A DNA stretch of 64,000 bases from Hydrogenothermus marinus. GTDB taxonomy: Bacteria; Aquificota; Aquificia; Aquificales; Hydrogenothermaceae. Positions 46,877-52,327 of the stretch are shown here, piece by piece. Within the stretch, counting starts at the first letter, position 1; every line of letters starts with the position of its first letter. The DNA is taken from the NCBI RefSeq assembly GCF_003688665.1, contig NZ_REFO01000010.1:124001-188000 (forward strand), given 5' to 3'. Under the pieces are notes generated by a model. It had not been told where the DNA came from and did not search any database. It saw only the letters and a program-made list of their open reading frames with translations. The position numbers and the translations under genes were made by a program.

Positions 46877-47695
46877 TTGGCTAATATATATGATGTAACT
46901 GATGAAAATTTTGAAGAAATAGTTATAGAAAAATCTTATGAAAAACCTGTTTTAGTAGATTTTTGGGCTCAATGGTGTGGGCCATGTAAAGCATTAAAAC
47001 CATTACTTGAAAAACTTGCCTCTGAATATGATTATATCCTTGCAAAAATTAATGTTGATGAAAATCCACATATAGCTCAAGAGTTTGGAGTTCAAGGAAT
47101 TCCAGATGTTAAATTATTTAAGGATGGTAAAGTAATTGATCAATTTGTTGGAGCTTATCCAGAACCAAAATTAAGAGATTTCTTAGAAAAACATATCAAA
47201 TCTAAAGTACAACAAAAATTAGATGAAGCTAAAATACTTATTTTAGATGGTAAGGTAAAAGAAGCAGAAGAATTATTTAAACAGCTTTTAAAAGATTATC
47301 CGGAAAATAAAGCTCTTGTTATTGAAGCAGCTAAATTTTTCATAAATGAAGGGAAAATAGATGAAGCTTTAAAAATTTTAGATACTATTAAAGAATATCA
47401 CAAAGAATATTATATCCAAGCTCAAGCCTTAAAAGAGATAGCTAAGCTTAAAGAAGCTTGTGATAATTTAAAAGAAGAAACCCAGTTAGATAAGCTTTAT
47501 AAAAAGGCAGCTTGTGAAACAGTGAATGGAAATTATGAAGAAGCTTTAAAACATTTTCTACAGATAGTTCAGCTAGATAAAAATTATAAAGATGAAGCAG
47601 GAAGAAAAGGAATGATAACAATATTTAATATTCTTGGGGAAAGACATCCACTAACTAAGGAATACAGAAAAAAACTTGCAATGGCTTTATACTAA
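46877..47695 (+). CDS. Thioredoxin-TPR fusion (CnoX/YbbN-like)
   Basis: This 272-residue cytoplasmic protein has a thioredoxin domain (about 1-108) with VLVDFWAQWCGPCKALKP, an intact CGPC active site. About 160 residues of TPR-like helices follow (AKILILDGKVKEAEELFKQLLKDYPENK). This is the layout of CnoX/YbbN, which protects and delivers proteins to chaperones under oxidative stress; E. coli YbbN lacks the full CxxC, while this one keeps it. The TTG start has GGAGG 8 nt upstream. The stop shares one base with the lolA ATG. Confidence 0.85.
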   Translation: MANIYDVTDENFEEIVIEKSYEKPVLVDFWAQWCGPCKALKPLLEKLASEYDYILAKINVDENPHIAQEFGVQGIPDVKLFKDGKVIDQFVGAYPEPKLRDFLEKHIKSKVQQKLDEAKILILDGKVKEAEELFKQLLKDYPENKALVIEAAKFFINEGKIDEALKILDTIKEYHKEYYIQAQALKEIAKLKEACDNLKEETQLDKLYKKAACETVNGNYEEALKHFLQIVQLDKNYKDEAGRKGMITIFNILGERHPLTKEYRKKLAMALY

Positions 47696-48282
47696 TGGCT
47701 AAAATACTTTTAATCCTTCTTATTCCTTTTTTTTCTTTTGCTAATGAAAGCTTAAATTTAGAAAAAATAATAAAAAAATATTCAAATAGTAAAATAGAGT
47801 TTAAACAAATTTCATACATAAAAGAACTAAATGAAAAACAAGAATTTGCAGGAATTATTTATTTAAAAAGTCCTAAATTTAAAGTTGTTTATACAAAGCC
47901 TTACAAACAAGTTATATTTTCAAAAGAAAATAAAATATTCATATATTCACCAGATGAAAACCAAGTAATAATAACTGATAAAAATAAAGATTTATTTATA
48001 CTTACCTTAGTAAAGATTTTATCAGGAAAAGAAAAATTATCTAATTATTTTTATATAAATAAAAAAAATGAAACTTATGTTTTAACTGCTAAGGAAAAAT
48101 TTATCAAAAAATTTAAACTGAAAAAAATGGAAATAGGATTTAAAAATAATGATATTGAAAAAATTATAATTTATGATACCATAGGAAACAAAATAATTTT
48201 TAAAATAATTAATGTTGAATTTGAAAAAAGTTTTGATATAAATTATATCTTGCCAAAAGATGTAGAAGTAATTAATTATTAA
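47695..48282 (+). CDS. lolA: LolA-like periplasmic lipoprotein carrier
   Basis: This 195-residue protein has a short signal peptide (KILLILLIPFFSFA, cleavage before NESLN) and a LolA fold pattern: IKKYSNSKIEFKQISYIKEL, FAGIIYLKSPKFKVVYTKPYKQVIFS, IFIYSPDENQVIITD. It carries lipoproteins from the inner to the outer membrane. It would serve outer-membrane lipoproteins such as PelC. It overlaps the thioredoxin stop by one base. Confidence 0.82.
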   Translation: MAKILLILLIPFFSFANESLNLEKIIKKYSNSKIEFKQISYIKELNEKQEFAGIIYLKSPKFKVVYTKPYKQVIFSKENKIFIYSPDENQVIITDKNKDLFILTLVKILSGKEKLSNYFYINKKNETYVLTAKEKFIKKFKLKKMEIGFKNNDIEKIIIYDTIGNKIIFKIINVEFEKSFDINYILPKDVEVINY

Positions 48283-48307
48283 TAATAAAAATAAATGGAG
48301 AAGGGAT

Positions 48308-49219
48308 ATGACAGATAAATATGGTAAAAGTAGTTGGTATAAGAGAACTTGGACAGAAGCAGAAAACGAAGATTTTAAGCCAAAAGTAGTAAAAGAAGGT
48401 GTATTAATCGGCAGTCATGCCCTTGCAAAAGCACCGAAGATTTATGGTGTACCTACAGGAGTAGAAGGTTTAGATGATTTATTTTTCATAACAGAGATAG
48501 AAAATGGAAAACCTGTTAAAAAAAACTTAGGAGGAATACCTGCTTATTCTGTTTTTAATATTACAGGTGTAAATGATACAGGAAAGTCTTTAATGGTAGA
48601 ACAGTTTACTGTTAAACAAGCTCAAAGAGGTGAAAAAGTTATATTTGTTACTGTAGAAACTCCTGCAAATTTTGCTATATCATCTATACAGATGAGAGCT
48701 CAGGCTATGGGCTATGATTTTTCAAAAATAGAAGATAATATTATCTTAATAGATGCAGCATCTCATGTATCATTAAGGGAAAACATACCAAATTTAACAG
48801 CTACTATGGAATATGCAATAAAAGAGTATGGAGCAAAATTCGTAGTTATTGATTCTGTGACAGGGTTATTTGAAAATCTAGAGATGAAAGCAAGAGGTAT
48901 AGTAAGAAGACTATATAGTTTTATGAAAGAACATAAACAAACTGCCCTTTTTGTTTCTCAAAAAAGAAGTGGACATGAAGATTTAAGCTCAGAAGCAGCA
49001 GGTGGCTATGCAGTAGGACATATTGTTGATGGAACAATGGTTCTTGCAAAAGAGATTATTATGACAACTTATCAAGCTAAAATATATAAAAAACCTATTG
49101 GTGAAATTGTACGATTATTCCGTATAGATGGATGTCGTATGTCTGGACATGATACAAAAACTCATTATCTTGAAATAACAGAAACAGGTTTAGTAAGAAT
49201 ATTAGAACCATTAAGTTAA
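48308..49219 (+). CDS. Thermophile KaiC-domain RecA-like ATPase
   Basis: This 303-residue single-domain KaiC-like protein has Walker A GVNDTGKS (residues 87-94), a catalytic-type Glu in VETPANFA (about 117) and Walker B FVVIDSV (about 178-184). An N-terminal extension with VPTGVEGLDDLFF precedes the ATPase core. It matches my recollection of the thermo_KaiC_2 family (AF_0795-like), found across bacteria and archaea but only in thermophiles. The family is presumed regulatory and its target is unknown. GGAGAAGG precedes the ATG. The HTH partner follows after 20 nt. Confidence 0.82.
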   Translation: MTDKYGKSSWYKRTWTEAENEDFKPKVVKEGVLIGSHALAKAPKIYGVPTGVEGLDDLFFITEIENGKPVKKNLGGIPAYSVFNITGVNDTGKSLMVEQFTVKQAQRGEKVIFVTVETPANFAISSIQMRAQAMGYDFSKIEDNIILIDAASHVSLRENIPNLTATMEYAIKEYGAKFVVIDSVTGLFENLEMKARGIVRRLYSFMKEHKQTALFVSQKRSGHEDLSSEAAGGYAVGHIVDGTMVLAKEIIMTTYQAKIYKKPIGEIVRLFRIDGCRMSGHDTKTHYLEITETGLVRILEPLS

Positions 49220-49239
49220 AATAAAAAGGAGGGTTTGAT

Positions 49240-49896
49240 ATGGTTATAGAACTAAAACCACAAGTGGATGAAAGTGAGCTTGAATCTTTAGTAGCTCGTG
49301 TATTTTTTAAATCTATTGATTTATTAGGAGGTCTTACAAAGCTTGCAGAATATCGTACACTTACTTGGCTTCCATCTTTAGCTCGTGCTGCTTATGCAGT
49401 TGTTTTAAGTGATAAATACTTTTATACAGAAGAAGAAATTGCAGAAAAAGTGGGGCTTACTAAAAATACAGTTCGTAATATATTAAGGGCTGATCCAGAG
49501 CTTGCACTTTATAAAGTTCAACATATAGATGAGCTAACATCAGAAGAGAAAAAAGAGTTAAGAGTACACACTGCTGGAGGTATTGCTAAACTTGCTTACA
49601 GAATGATTAAAGAAGGCCAAGAAGCCCAAAGCTTATTACAGTTCTGTCAACAAATGACAGAGCAAGCAGTACAAGTAGTTTGTGAAGCTCCATGGCCTTA
49701 TTTAGTATTAAAACAACTTAGAGGTATAAAATATCCAATTACAAAACCTGAAGAAATAGCTGAAAAACTTAAAGGTATAAAAGCACAAGGTTTAGAAATC
49801 TCTGAAATTGTTGAGCATATAAATTATCCAATTAATACACCTGCATTGCTTTTACATGAAATCCATGAGTATTTACAAAAACAAGAATTAGTATAA
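49240..49896 (+). CDS. KaiC-associated HTH regulatory protein
   Basis: This 218-residue protein has a helix-turn-helix at about 63-85 (TEEEIAEKVGLTKNTVRNILRAD) and a long helical remainder (VHTAGGIAKLAYRMIKEGQEAQSLLQF, then IKYPITKPEEIAEKLKGIKAQGLEISEIVEHINYPINTP). A common 'near-KaiC' domain has been described for proteins encoded beside thermophile KaiC homologues, and this fits by position and pattern. It probably binds DNA under control of the ATPase. GGAGGG precedes the ATG and a terminator follows, so the pair is one operon. Confidence 0.72.
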   Translation: MVIELKPQVDESELESLVARVFFKSIDLLGGLTKLAEYRTLTWLPSLARAAYAVVLSDKYFYTEEEIAEKVGLTKNTVRNILRADPELALYKVQHIDELTSEEKKELRVHTAGGIAKLAYRMIKEGQEAQSLLQFCQQMTEQAVQVVCEAPWPYLVLKQLRGIKYPITKPEEIAEKLKGIKAQGLEISEIVEHINYPINTPALLLHEIHEYLQKQELV

Positions 49897-49904
49897 AAAA
49901 TTTT

Positions 49905-49928
49905 AAGGGTTCTACTTGAACCCTTTTT
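49905..49928 (+). terminator. Terminator after the KaiC/HTH pair
   Basis: AAGGGTTC pairs with GAACCCTT over a 5-nt loop, followed by further T. It begins 9 nt after the stop. Confidence 0.92.
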
Positions 49929-49983: not shown

Positions 49984-50440
49984 ATGAAATTTAATTACGG
50001 CAAAACCATTCTTCTTGGAATTATATTATTTACATTATTTACAATATCCTCATTTTTTTTTCTTACCTACTAAGTATAGTGTTTCTTTTGCAATAATGGA
50101 TATAGCCGTTATAGTTTTTGCATTTTTAGTTTGGCTTAATGATAAATATTATAATGAACAAATTAGTATTAGAGTTTTTTCCATAGCAGATAAAAAATTT
50201 ATAGAAGATGTTATTGTTAGACAGATGAATATGCATGGTATTTCTAATATTGTAAGAAAAGAGAACAAAATTGAGTTTTACAAAGGAAAAAATAAAGCAG
50301 GTGAAGTTAGATATAAATTAGATGAAAAAGGTAATCCACTTTACATTGATAAAAAATGGGTTATAGAAGTAGAAGCTCCTGAATATATTCTTCATAATAT
50401 AGATCATGAACTTTGGAGTTTAATAGGAACAAAACAGTAA
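49984..50440 (+). pseudogene. Two-helix membrane protein gene interrupted by a frameshift at a 9-T tract
   Basis: An ATG at 49984 with AGAGGA 5 nt upstream starts a membrane-type sequence (KTILLGIILFTLFTISS) that stops at 50071, just after nine T (50053-50061). Reading one T fewer joins it to a 130-residue open frame ending at 50440. The joined product is 151 residues with two transmembrane helices (about 8-27 and 32-50) and a soluble C-terminus (FIEDVIVRQMNMHGIS ... HELWSLIGTKQ). I do not recognise the family. The gene may be broken, rescued by slippage, phase-variable or a sequencing error. It stands directly upstream of the Pel operon. Confidence 0.6.
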
Positions 50441-50588: not shown

Positions 50589-51065
50589 ATGAAAAAATCT
50601 TTTTTTACAATATTATTAATATTTTTTTCGTTTTATTTATTATCTTGTTCTTCAGTAAAAGAAAATATAAAAGTAGGGAAATTACCTAAAAAAGGAATTA
50701 TTGTTGTTTACCCTTTTGAAAACTTCTCTCAAACTCCTTATGCAGGTGTGAAAGCAGCTTCTTTAACAAAGGGGATTTTATTAAGTAAAGGTTTTAAAGT
50801 AGTAGATGGTTATATTTTTGATGGTGAAAATATAAAATTAAAAAGCATTAAAAATTTTGATTATAAATTAACTGGTAAAGTAATAGAATGGAGATATAAA
50901 ACAGGAATAGATGGTGAACCTGCAGTTAGTTTGTATATACAAATTAAAAATAAAAATGGACATTTAATATGGTCTGCTACTGGATCAAAATCACAATGGG
51001 GACATAAATCTGTATCTTTAACAGCTCAAGAATTAATAGATGAGCTTGTTAGTAAAAGTAAATGA
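50589..51065 (+). CDS. pelC: Pel polysaccharide outer-membrane lipoprotein PelC
   Basis: This 158-residue lipoprotein has the signal KKSFFTILLIFFSFYLLSC ending in a lipobox Cys (residue 19 or so). The mature part IIVVYPFENFSQTPYAGVKAASLTKGILLSKGFKVV matches the PelC pattern (P-F-x-N-x-S/T-x-T-P-x-A-G). In Pseudomonas PelC forms a 12-subunit ring at the outer membrane that guides the polymer to PelB. Length is close to the Pseudomonas protein (172). The ATG at 50589 has AAAGGAG 6 nt upstream; an in-frame ATG 51 nt earlier would bury the signal peptide. It overlaps pelD by 4 nt. Confidence 0.8.
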   Translation: MKKSFFTILLIFFSFYLLSCSSVKENIKVGKLPKKGIIVVYPFENFSQTPYAGVKAASLTKGILLSKGFKVVDGYIFDGENIKLKSIKNFDYKLTGKVIEWRYKTGIDGEPAVSLYIQIKNKNGHLIWSATGSKSQWGHKSVSLTAQELIDELVSKSK

Positions 51066-52327
51066 AAGAAAGTTTAAAATCAAATATAAAAATAAATTTT
51101 AAAAGTTTAAAAGATATTTCTGTTATTTTTGAAATAATTGTAATATTTGTTGTATCTTTTTCTATAGGATATATTTTAAATAATCAAGATCCTCTATTTA
51201 TAAAAACCTCTAATTTTAATTATTTTTATATACCTATTTTGGTTTTATCTTTATTTTATGGTATGGGTGCTGGATTATTGTTACTATTTTTACTTACTAT
51301 TTCTGGTTTTATTTATTTAAAAGAGTTTCCTGAATTTTTTTTCTTAAATGGTTTGATGCTTTCTTTAATTTCAGGAGAATTTTATTTTTATTGGCGAAAA
51401 AAAATAGAATCAATAGAGTCTAAAGCAACATATTTAGAGGAAAAATTAAGAGAAATAGGTATAGCTGCACATACAATCAGAATATCTCATGATATATTGG
51501 AAAAAAGCTATATATCAAAACCTTATACAATAAGAGCTGTTTTACATAAAATACAAAAAGAAGAAAATATAGAAAATTTTTTTAAATTCATATCAAATCA
51601 ATTTTTTGTAGAAAGTTTTGTCTATGTGGAGTATGATTCTGAAAAAGAAGAAATAAAAAATGTGTATCCTTTTAATTCAGATAAAAAAAAGATAGATTTA
51701 GAGCATCCTTTGATTCAAAAAATGTTATTTTTGCAAGAGATTGTATATATAAAAGATATGATAGATATAAAAAATATAGATTATATAGCTACCATTCCTA
51801 TATTTGATATTAATGAAAAATTAAAAGCATTTTTTTTAATAGAACATATACCATTTATCCATTATAATATTGAAAATCTACTTTCTATACAGCTTGTTTC
51901 TCAGTATTTTTTATTTAATATAGCTAAACAAAAAGAAATTGAAGCTATTAGTAAAGAGAATATATTACCTGAATATATTCCATCTGATTTTAAATATGAA
52001 ATATTTAAACTACGTAAATTAAAAAAAATTTCAGATGTAGATTCTTCTATTGTAATAATAGAAGTAAAAAGTAGTTATTCTTCAATAATAGATAACTTCT
52101 TAGGACAAAGCCTTAGAGCTTTAGATTTTTATACAAAAATAGAAAATAAAGAGAATAATATTTTTATAATTGTCCTTCCCTTAATTGCTAAGGAAGGAGG
52201 TATTGGATTTATAAATAGATTATATGAGCAATTTGATTTTTTAGACCATAAATATAAATATTTTGTTTTTAATATTAAAGATTTAAATAAAGTGAATGAA
52301 ATTTTAAATAATTTGGTAAAAGGATAA
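51062..52327 (+). CDS. pelD: Pel regulatory inner-membrane protein PelD (c-di-GMP receptor)
   Basis: This 421-residue protein has four transmembrane helices within about 20-112 and a helical stalk (about 112-135). A GAF domain (about 165-295) and a degenerate GGDEF domain (about 305-421) follow, the same layout as Pseudomonas PelD (455). The GGDEF-like part lacks GGDEF but keeps an inhibitory-site RxxD, Arg352-Ala-Leu-Asp355, which in PelD binds c-di-GMP and switches on synthesis by PelF. It starts within the pelC stop (ATGA) and pelE follows after 4 nt. Confidence 0.8.
   Translation: MKESLKSNIKINFKSLKDISVIFEIIVIFVVSFSIGYILNNQDPLFIKTSNFNYFYIPILVLSLFYGMGAGLLLLFLLTISGFIYLKEFPEFFFLNGLMLSLISGEFYFYWRKKIESIESKATYLEEKLREIGIAAHTIRISHDILEKSYISKPYTIRAVLHKIQKEENIENFFKFISNQFFVESFVYVEYDSEKEEIKNVYPFNSDKKKIDLEHPLIQKMLFLQEIVYIKDMIDIKNIDYIATIPIFDINEKLKAFFLIEHIPFIHYNIENLLSIQLVSQYFLFNIAKQKEIEAISKENILPEYIPSDFKYEIFKLRKLKKISDVDSSIVIIEVKSSYSSIIDNFLGQSLRALDFYTKIENKENNIFIIVLPLIAKEGGIGFINRLYEQFDFLDHKYKYFVFNIKDLNKVNEILNNLVKG

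Follow-up and report, generated by a model that had tools for sequence, protein, structure and literature searches.

ATPases of the KaiC-like kind occur widely among archaea and heat-adapted bacteria, and both the KaiC CI domain and PH0284 form rings. Apart from their parts in the cyanobacterial clock and in the archaellum, little is known of what these proteins do. The two families that concern us here, TIGR03878 (thermo_KaiC_2) and TIGR03879 (near_KaiC_dom), have already been catalogued, and their association probably has been too; a regular co-occurrence with a KaiC-like partner belongs to the description of TIGR03879. In Haloferax, the KaiC-like protein CirA and the DNA-binding protein CsmR, which is described as similar to Lrp/AsnC regulators, are reported to have much of their regulon in common, and a direct action between the two is put forward as a proposal in that paper (PMC13286277). 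The available part of a further paper (PMC1274311) does not mention KaiC, and a literature search with most subscription journals outside its coverage returned no paper that we recognised as dealing with the ATPase-HTH pair.

The window that we analysed is a stretch of 64,000 nucleotides from Hydrogenothermus marinus (contig NZ_REFO01000010.1, positions 124,001 to 188,000). Two of its ORFs, at 48308-49219 (303 aa) and 49240-49896 (218 aa), both on the + strand, code for a KaiC-like ATPase and a helix-turn-helix (HTH) protein. Our overall reading, to which we assign a probability of roughly 0.45, is that an ATP-dependent ring would gate or remodel the DNA binding of its HTH partner, the two forming a small ATP-driven transcription switch. 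The locus is laid out as follows:

47695..48282, + strand: lolA-like gene (PF03548, 68.5 bits), context only
48297..48305, + strand: ribosome-binding-like stretch ggagaaggg, 5' of the KaiC-like gene (read from the sequence)
48308..49219, + strand: KaiC-like single-domain ATPase of the thermo_KaiC_2 family (TIGR03878, AF2 model, Foldseek)
49226..49233, + strand: ribosome-binding-like stretch aaggaggg, 5' of the HTH gene (read from the sequence)
49240..49896, + strand: near-KaiC HTH protein, 218 aa (TIGR03879, AF2 model)
49905-49925, no strand assigned: bidirectional terminator-like hairpin AAGGGTTCTACTTGAACCCTT, T-rich on both strands

The gap of 20 nt between the two genes (49219/49240, same strand) agrees with the earlier note, as does the terminator that it placed after the pair, here a T-rich, terminator-like hairpin at 49905-49925. 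Because the lolA-like gene ends 25 nt upstream of the KaiC-like gene on the same strand, it may be co-transcribed with the pair in a transcript longer than two genes; it is not kept as a neighbour in other genomes. We found no neighbourhood kept beyond the pair, the neighbours being housekeeping genes that change between genera, with the exception of family f2, where most of the genomes read have the HTH gene beside rpsA, HU or tamB genes. This is a recurring site of the near-KaiC HTH gene in that family (loci L073-L078, L088-L090, L174-L177 and L181-L187). No known RNA element was found in the window at the gathering threshold. Elsewhere in the window we noted a thioredoxin fused to TPR repeats (46877-47695), a protein whose degenerate GGDEF domain is PelD-like (51062-52327; 30.3 bits, cut-off 27) and a membrane-protein gene (49984-50440) whose reading frame is interrupted at nine consecutive Ts, whereas its orthologues in related genomes are read through in one frame; the gene may be a pseudogene, or the interruption a sequencing error or slippage.

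The ATPase matched the NCBIfam family TIGR03878 over the whole profile (447.1 bits, cut-off 232.2; positions 1-259 of 259) and Pfam KaiC with 190 bits, and it is the one TIGR03878 match in the H. marinus genome. Its main features are:

48566..48589, + strand: Walker A GVNDTGKS, residues 87-94 (25-sequence alignment)
48656..48658, + strand: Glu117, aligned with the first of the two KaiC catalytic Glu residues, invariant in 25/25 (alignments)
48839..48856, + strand: Walker B FVVIDS, residues 178-183 (25-sequence alignment)
48956..49030, + strand: SQKRSGHE...EAAGGYA..H..D, residues 217-241, nearly invariant, with pLDDT under 50 at 220-226 and 228-232
49121..49156, + strand: RIDGCRMSGHDT, residues 272-283, candidate subunit-interface (arginine-finger) stretch, nearly invariant in the 25 sequences

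G87, G92, K93, E117 and D182 were invariant across the 25 aligned relatives and, together with the full-length TIGR03878 match, they uphold the initial description of a single KaiC-type domain with intact Walker motifs. The AF2 model (pLDDT 85.9, pTM 0.84; 23 of the 25 KaiC rows in the alignment used for prediction) retrieved KaiC CI domains and PH0284 in Foldseek, with E about 1e-16. Residues 217-241 count among the best conserved of the ATPase, yet they are unsettled in the monomer model, which would fit a loop that becomes ordered upon binding of a partner, DNA or a neighbouring subunit. This stretch aligns with SQ...GG..H.VDG of PH0284 and resembles the L2 region of RecA-type ATPases. The latter likeness, in a stretch that is nearly invariant and partly shared with PH0284, favours an alternative in which the pair is an accessory of DNA repair or recombination: a RecA-paralogue ATPase would act on DNA, and the HTH protein, instead of being a transcription factor, would be the subunit that docks it to DNA. 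Additionally, the ATPase gave weak matches to RadB (29.5 bits), RadA (26.8 bits) and Sms (21 bits), and SSO2452, a RadA paralogue, was among its matches. However, the RadA, RadB and Sms matches are all far under cut-off, the protein is far more KaiC-like than RadA-like and no repair genes recurred beside the pair in the loci read, and we consider a repair function unlikely.

The HTH protein matched TIGR03879 near_KaiC_dom well over its cut-off (125 bits, cut-off 65.1; residues 27-126), so that the near-KaiC identity on which the earlier note had made its proposal depend is confirmed; in the phylum survey this was the one TIGR03879 match in the H. marinus genome. The following features were placed on it:

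49318..49617, + strand: near_KaiC domain, residues 27-126 (TIGR03879 match)
49351..49389, + strand: YRTLTWLPSLARA, residues 38-50, candidate ATPase contact, conserved in paired HTH proteins and altered in several orphans
49429..49488, + strand: helix-turn-helix, residues 64-83, with helices 64-71 and 75-83 (AF2 model; weak Pfam and fold matches)
49627..49893, + strand: C-terminal extension, residues 130-218, missing from the Thermomicrobium roseum, G066 and G090 proteins

In the AF2 model (pLDDT 87.9, pTM 0.62; 29 of the 36 HTH rows in the alignment used for prediction) the predicted helix-turn-helix sits in an all-helical N-terminal domain. HTH matches in Pfam were weak and under cut-off, and the model resembles DeoR/sigma-4/ParB-type DNA-binding domains weakly (best structural Z 5.2); a PDB fold search with it gave no match at E 0.001, the lack of a better match being uninformative. 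The Thermomicrobium protein has 127 aa and two of the four proteins from a second phylum (G066 and G090) have 132-134 aa, indicating that the HTH core comprises ~130 residues and that the C-terminal part is optional.

A survey of the two families, which the earlier note had asked for, found them together in 106 of 136 genomes of the phylum of H. marinus and in the same four of 201 sampled genomes of a second phylum (that of G041), where each family was over cut-off in those four and in no others. In the own phylum the ATPase was present in 114 genomes and the HTH protein in 116, with eight genomes carrying the ATPase only, ten the HTH only and 12 neither (Fisher p 8.5e-7, a value that ignores relatedness and assembly gaps); 106 of the 116 HTH-bearing genomes thus also had a TIGR03878 match. 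The best-quality subset (n = 88) comprised 78 genomes with both, two with the ATPase only, four with the HTH only and four with neither (p 4e-4, relatedness and assembly gaps again ignored). Many of the single-gene genomes (10 HTH alone, 8 ATPase alone) are fragmented drafts. Among 14 control genomes, thermo_KaiC_2 was over cut-off in one (Thermus composti), near_KaiC_dom in three (T. composti, Thermotoga maritima and Methanocaldococcus jannaschii) and thermo_KaiC_1 in two, which we infer to be T. maritima and M. jannaschii, where it could be an alternative partner for the HTH protein. Furthermore, a scan of genome contigs with the ATPase as query gave one relative (L002), two scans of viral contigs gave no relative of the ATPase or the HTH protein, and among the plasmids scanned a close relative of both proteins was found in T. 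roseum only.

The pair had also been described as limited to thermophiles. The window proteins gave an IVYWREL estimate near 72 degrees. In the second phylum IVYWREL tended to be higher in carriers than in non-carriers (3 vs 13, p 0.013); this comparison covered the genomes for which more than 5000 aa had been read, namely three of four carriers and 13 of 27 negatives. Estimates from up to 20 kb per genome are noisy: for G090, one contig indicated 79 degrees and another 33. Several non-carriers were equally thermophile-like by IVYWREL or 16S GC, and 16S GC did not separate carriers from non-carriers. In this regard, G272, which has neither gene, showed nearly the same 16S GC as its congener G269, which has both (0.550 vs 0.555), so temperature is no obvious explanation for the loss in G272. 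A restriction to thermophiles is consistent with these rough temperature proxies, but thermophily is clearly insufficient for carrying the pair.

Of the 106 own-phylum genomes with both genes, 40 have them side by side (31 in family f1 and nine in f2), and in the other 66 they lie apart, two within 3 kb, one at 16 kb and the others far away or on different contigs; in families f3 and f5 they are never adjacent. Spacing in the linked genomes runs from 4-nt overlaps up to about 66 nt. The T. roseum megaplasmid (L093) carries the pair with a 4-nt overlap, and G014 (L057) has the reversed order, HTH then ATPase, 1 nt apart. We also observed an anti-phage-annotated cluster (DUF499, DUF1156, phospholipase D-like) on the T. 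roseum megaplasmid, ~4 kb from the pair. Linkage in other genomes, without which the proposed two-gene module would have fallen, was found in other families and phyla; nevertheless, because the genes are adjacent in only 40 of 106 genomes and apart in 66, the term suits a partnership of proteins better than it suits an operon. The short gaps of the linked genomes would also suit an autoregulated operon, in which the HTH protein controls only the ATPase gene and the ATPase acts elsewhere alone. We regard this as quite unlikely, since co-occurrence persists where the genes are unlinked and no operator was shared by 31 ATPase genes: the 120 bases upstream of each contained no 6-8-base word above shuffles, and the 109 inverted repeats in these regions did not exceed what shuffling produced (mean 87.6, maximum 118).

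Gene trees were built from 73 HTH rows and from 56 KaiC rows, the latter taken from fewer than all 136 genomes with one or a few per genus, by a quick method with SH-aLRT support only for both large trees; the HTH protein of G333 was left out of the HTH tree. One clade of 13 genomes, three from f1 and ten from f2, recurred in both trees (SH-aLRT 88 and 89), and a transfer of the two linked genes best explains this two-family grouping. G014, a member of f1, has both the ATPase and the HTH of f2 type. In addition, the ATPases of G041 and G069, from the other phylum, nest inside own-phylum sequences (support 99), and so do their HTH proteins in a careful tree (98/98), with a less firm position in the quick tree. 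Seven genomes (G029, G037, G039 and G287-G290) have one ATPase each, of the incoming type, and have retained a second HTH gene at rpsA, HU or tamB genes. The resident HTH copies left after ATPase replacement showed paths of 0.80-1.2 in the tree, measured from the shared node; in 14 relatives with the resident ATPase the median was 0.21 and the longest path 0.30. Three of these copies were scored and had changes at 27, 33 and 37 of 98 conserved columns, and the HTH protein of G280, which is without ATPase, had changed at 26 of 98; six control HTH proteins had 2 to 10 changes of 99-105 conserved columns. G277 also has no ATPase (94% complete) and its HTH protein is undiverged (path 0.21, 5/98 columns). 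Most HTH copies without a cognate ATPase thus change fast, with orphan-copy changes at residues 40-49 and also in the HTH turn. For seven of the eight diverged orphans this could reflect redundancy, because those genomes carry a second HTH; G280 alone is without it. The comparison of G033 with G037, G039 and G287-G290, all of one genus, offers a natural contrast between an HTH protein with and without its matching ATPase.

These trees, which show gene transfer between families, together with the phylum-wide presence of both families in one group, could be taken to mean that the two families co-occur through common thermophile ancestry and gene transfer and not for functional reasons. We find this very unlikely, since four of 201 genomes in the other phylum retain both and 12 of 136 lack both, the two have repeatedly moved jointly and orphan HTH copies change fast. 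A circadian clock or other timer like KaiABC, and with it the time-linked switch once considered for this locus, would share the KaiC fold but is extremely improbable, as KaiB is over the PF07689 cut-off in none of 136 genomes (four short weak matches lie below it), the ATPase has one KaiC domain (TIGR02655, 39.9 bits vs a cut-off of 546) and the KaiC phosphosites align with Gly/Ser237 and the invariant His238 and not with conserved Ser/Thr.

The families, the ATPase motifs, the predicted KaiC and HTH folds, the co-occurrence, the joint movement and the change of orphan HTH copies suggest an ATP-driven transcription switch. The ATPase would assemble as an ATP-dependent KaiC-like ring and this ring would physically engage its dedicated HTH partner, whose DNA binding would be gated or remodelled by the nucleotide state of the ATPase. 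This binding would in turn control transcription, with energy charge or temperature as a possible trigger. The partnership of the two proteins is supported by evolution. Counted against the switch are the undiverged HTH protein of G277 though its ATPase is gone, the 18 single-gene genomes, the lack of a shared operator and the changes in the HTH turn of orphans, which show that divergence is not confined to the proposed ATPase contact. As a long shot, the ATPase could be a dedicated transcription-factor remodeller, whose nearly invariant RecA-like L2 stretch would, driven by ATP, seat the HTH protein on DNA or strip it off, in a portable thermophile module that would pass whole from one family or phylum to another and in which the HTH protein would decay without the matching ring; we know of no ATP-driven loader of a small HTH regulator in bacteria. 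All these data, with two genes that heat-loving microbes have for the most part retained, transferred and lost jointly, suggest an ATP-driven gene switch. Being compact, present in most of a phylum and moved jointly with a DNA-binding partner of its own, the ATPase makes a tractable case for studying what a KaiC ring does without a clock.

Lastly, both window proteins are members of TIGR03878 and TIGR03879 over the curated cut-offs and are adjacent, as the family names imply; nothing in them falls outside these families, and the extra C-terminal part that the HTH protein carries is a feature of its lineage. PH0284-type ATPases (TIGR03877, 2dr3) share with the window ATPase the single KaiC-like domain and the SQ...GG..H.VDG stretch, but they are a different family, in which the window ATPase scores 65.5 bits against a cut-off of 307. 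Cyanobacterial KaiC is alike in fold, Walker motifs and the first catalytic Glu, whereas it has two domains, KaiB and Ser/Thr phosphosites and the window ATPase has one domain, no KaiB over cut-off beside it in the phylum and aligned positions that are not conserved as Ser/Thr. The CirA/CsmR system of Haloferax likewise joins a KaiC-like protein with a DNA-binding protein, their regulons overlapping, and offers a precedent for a regulator of the KaiC-like type being linked to one that binds DNA.
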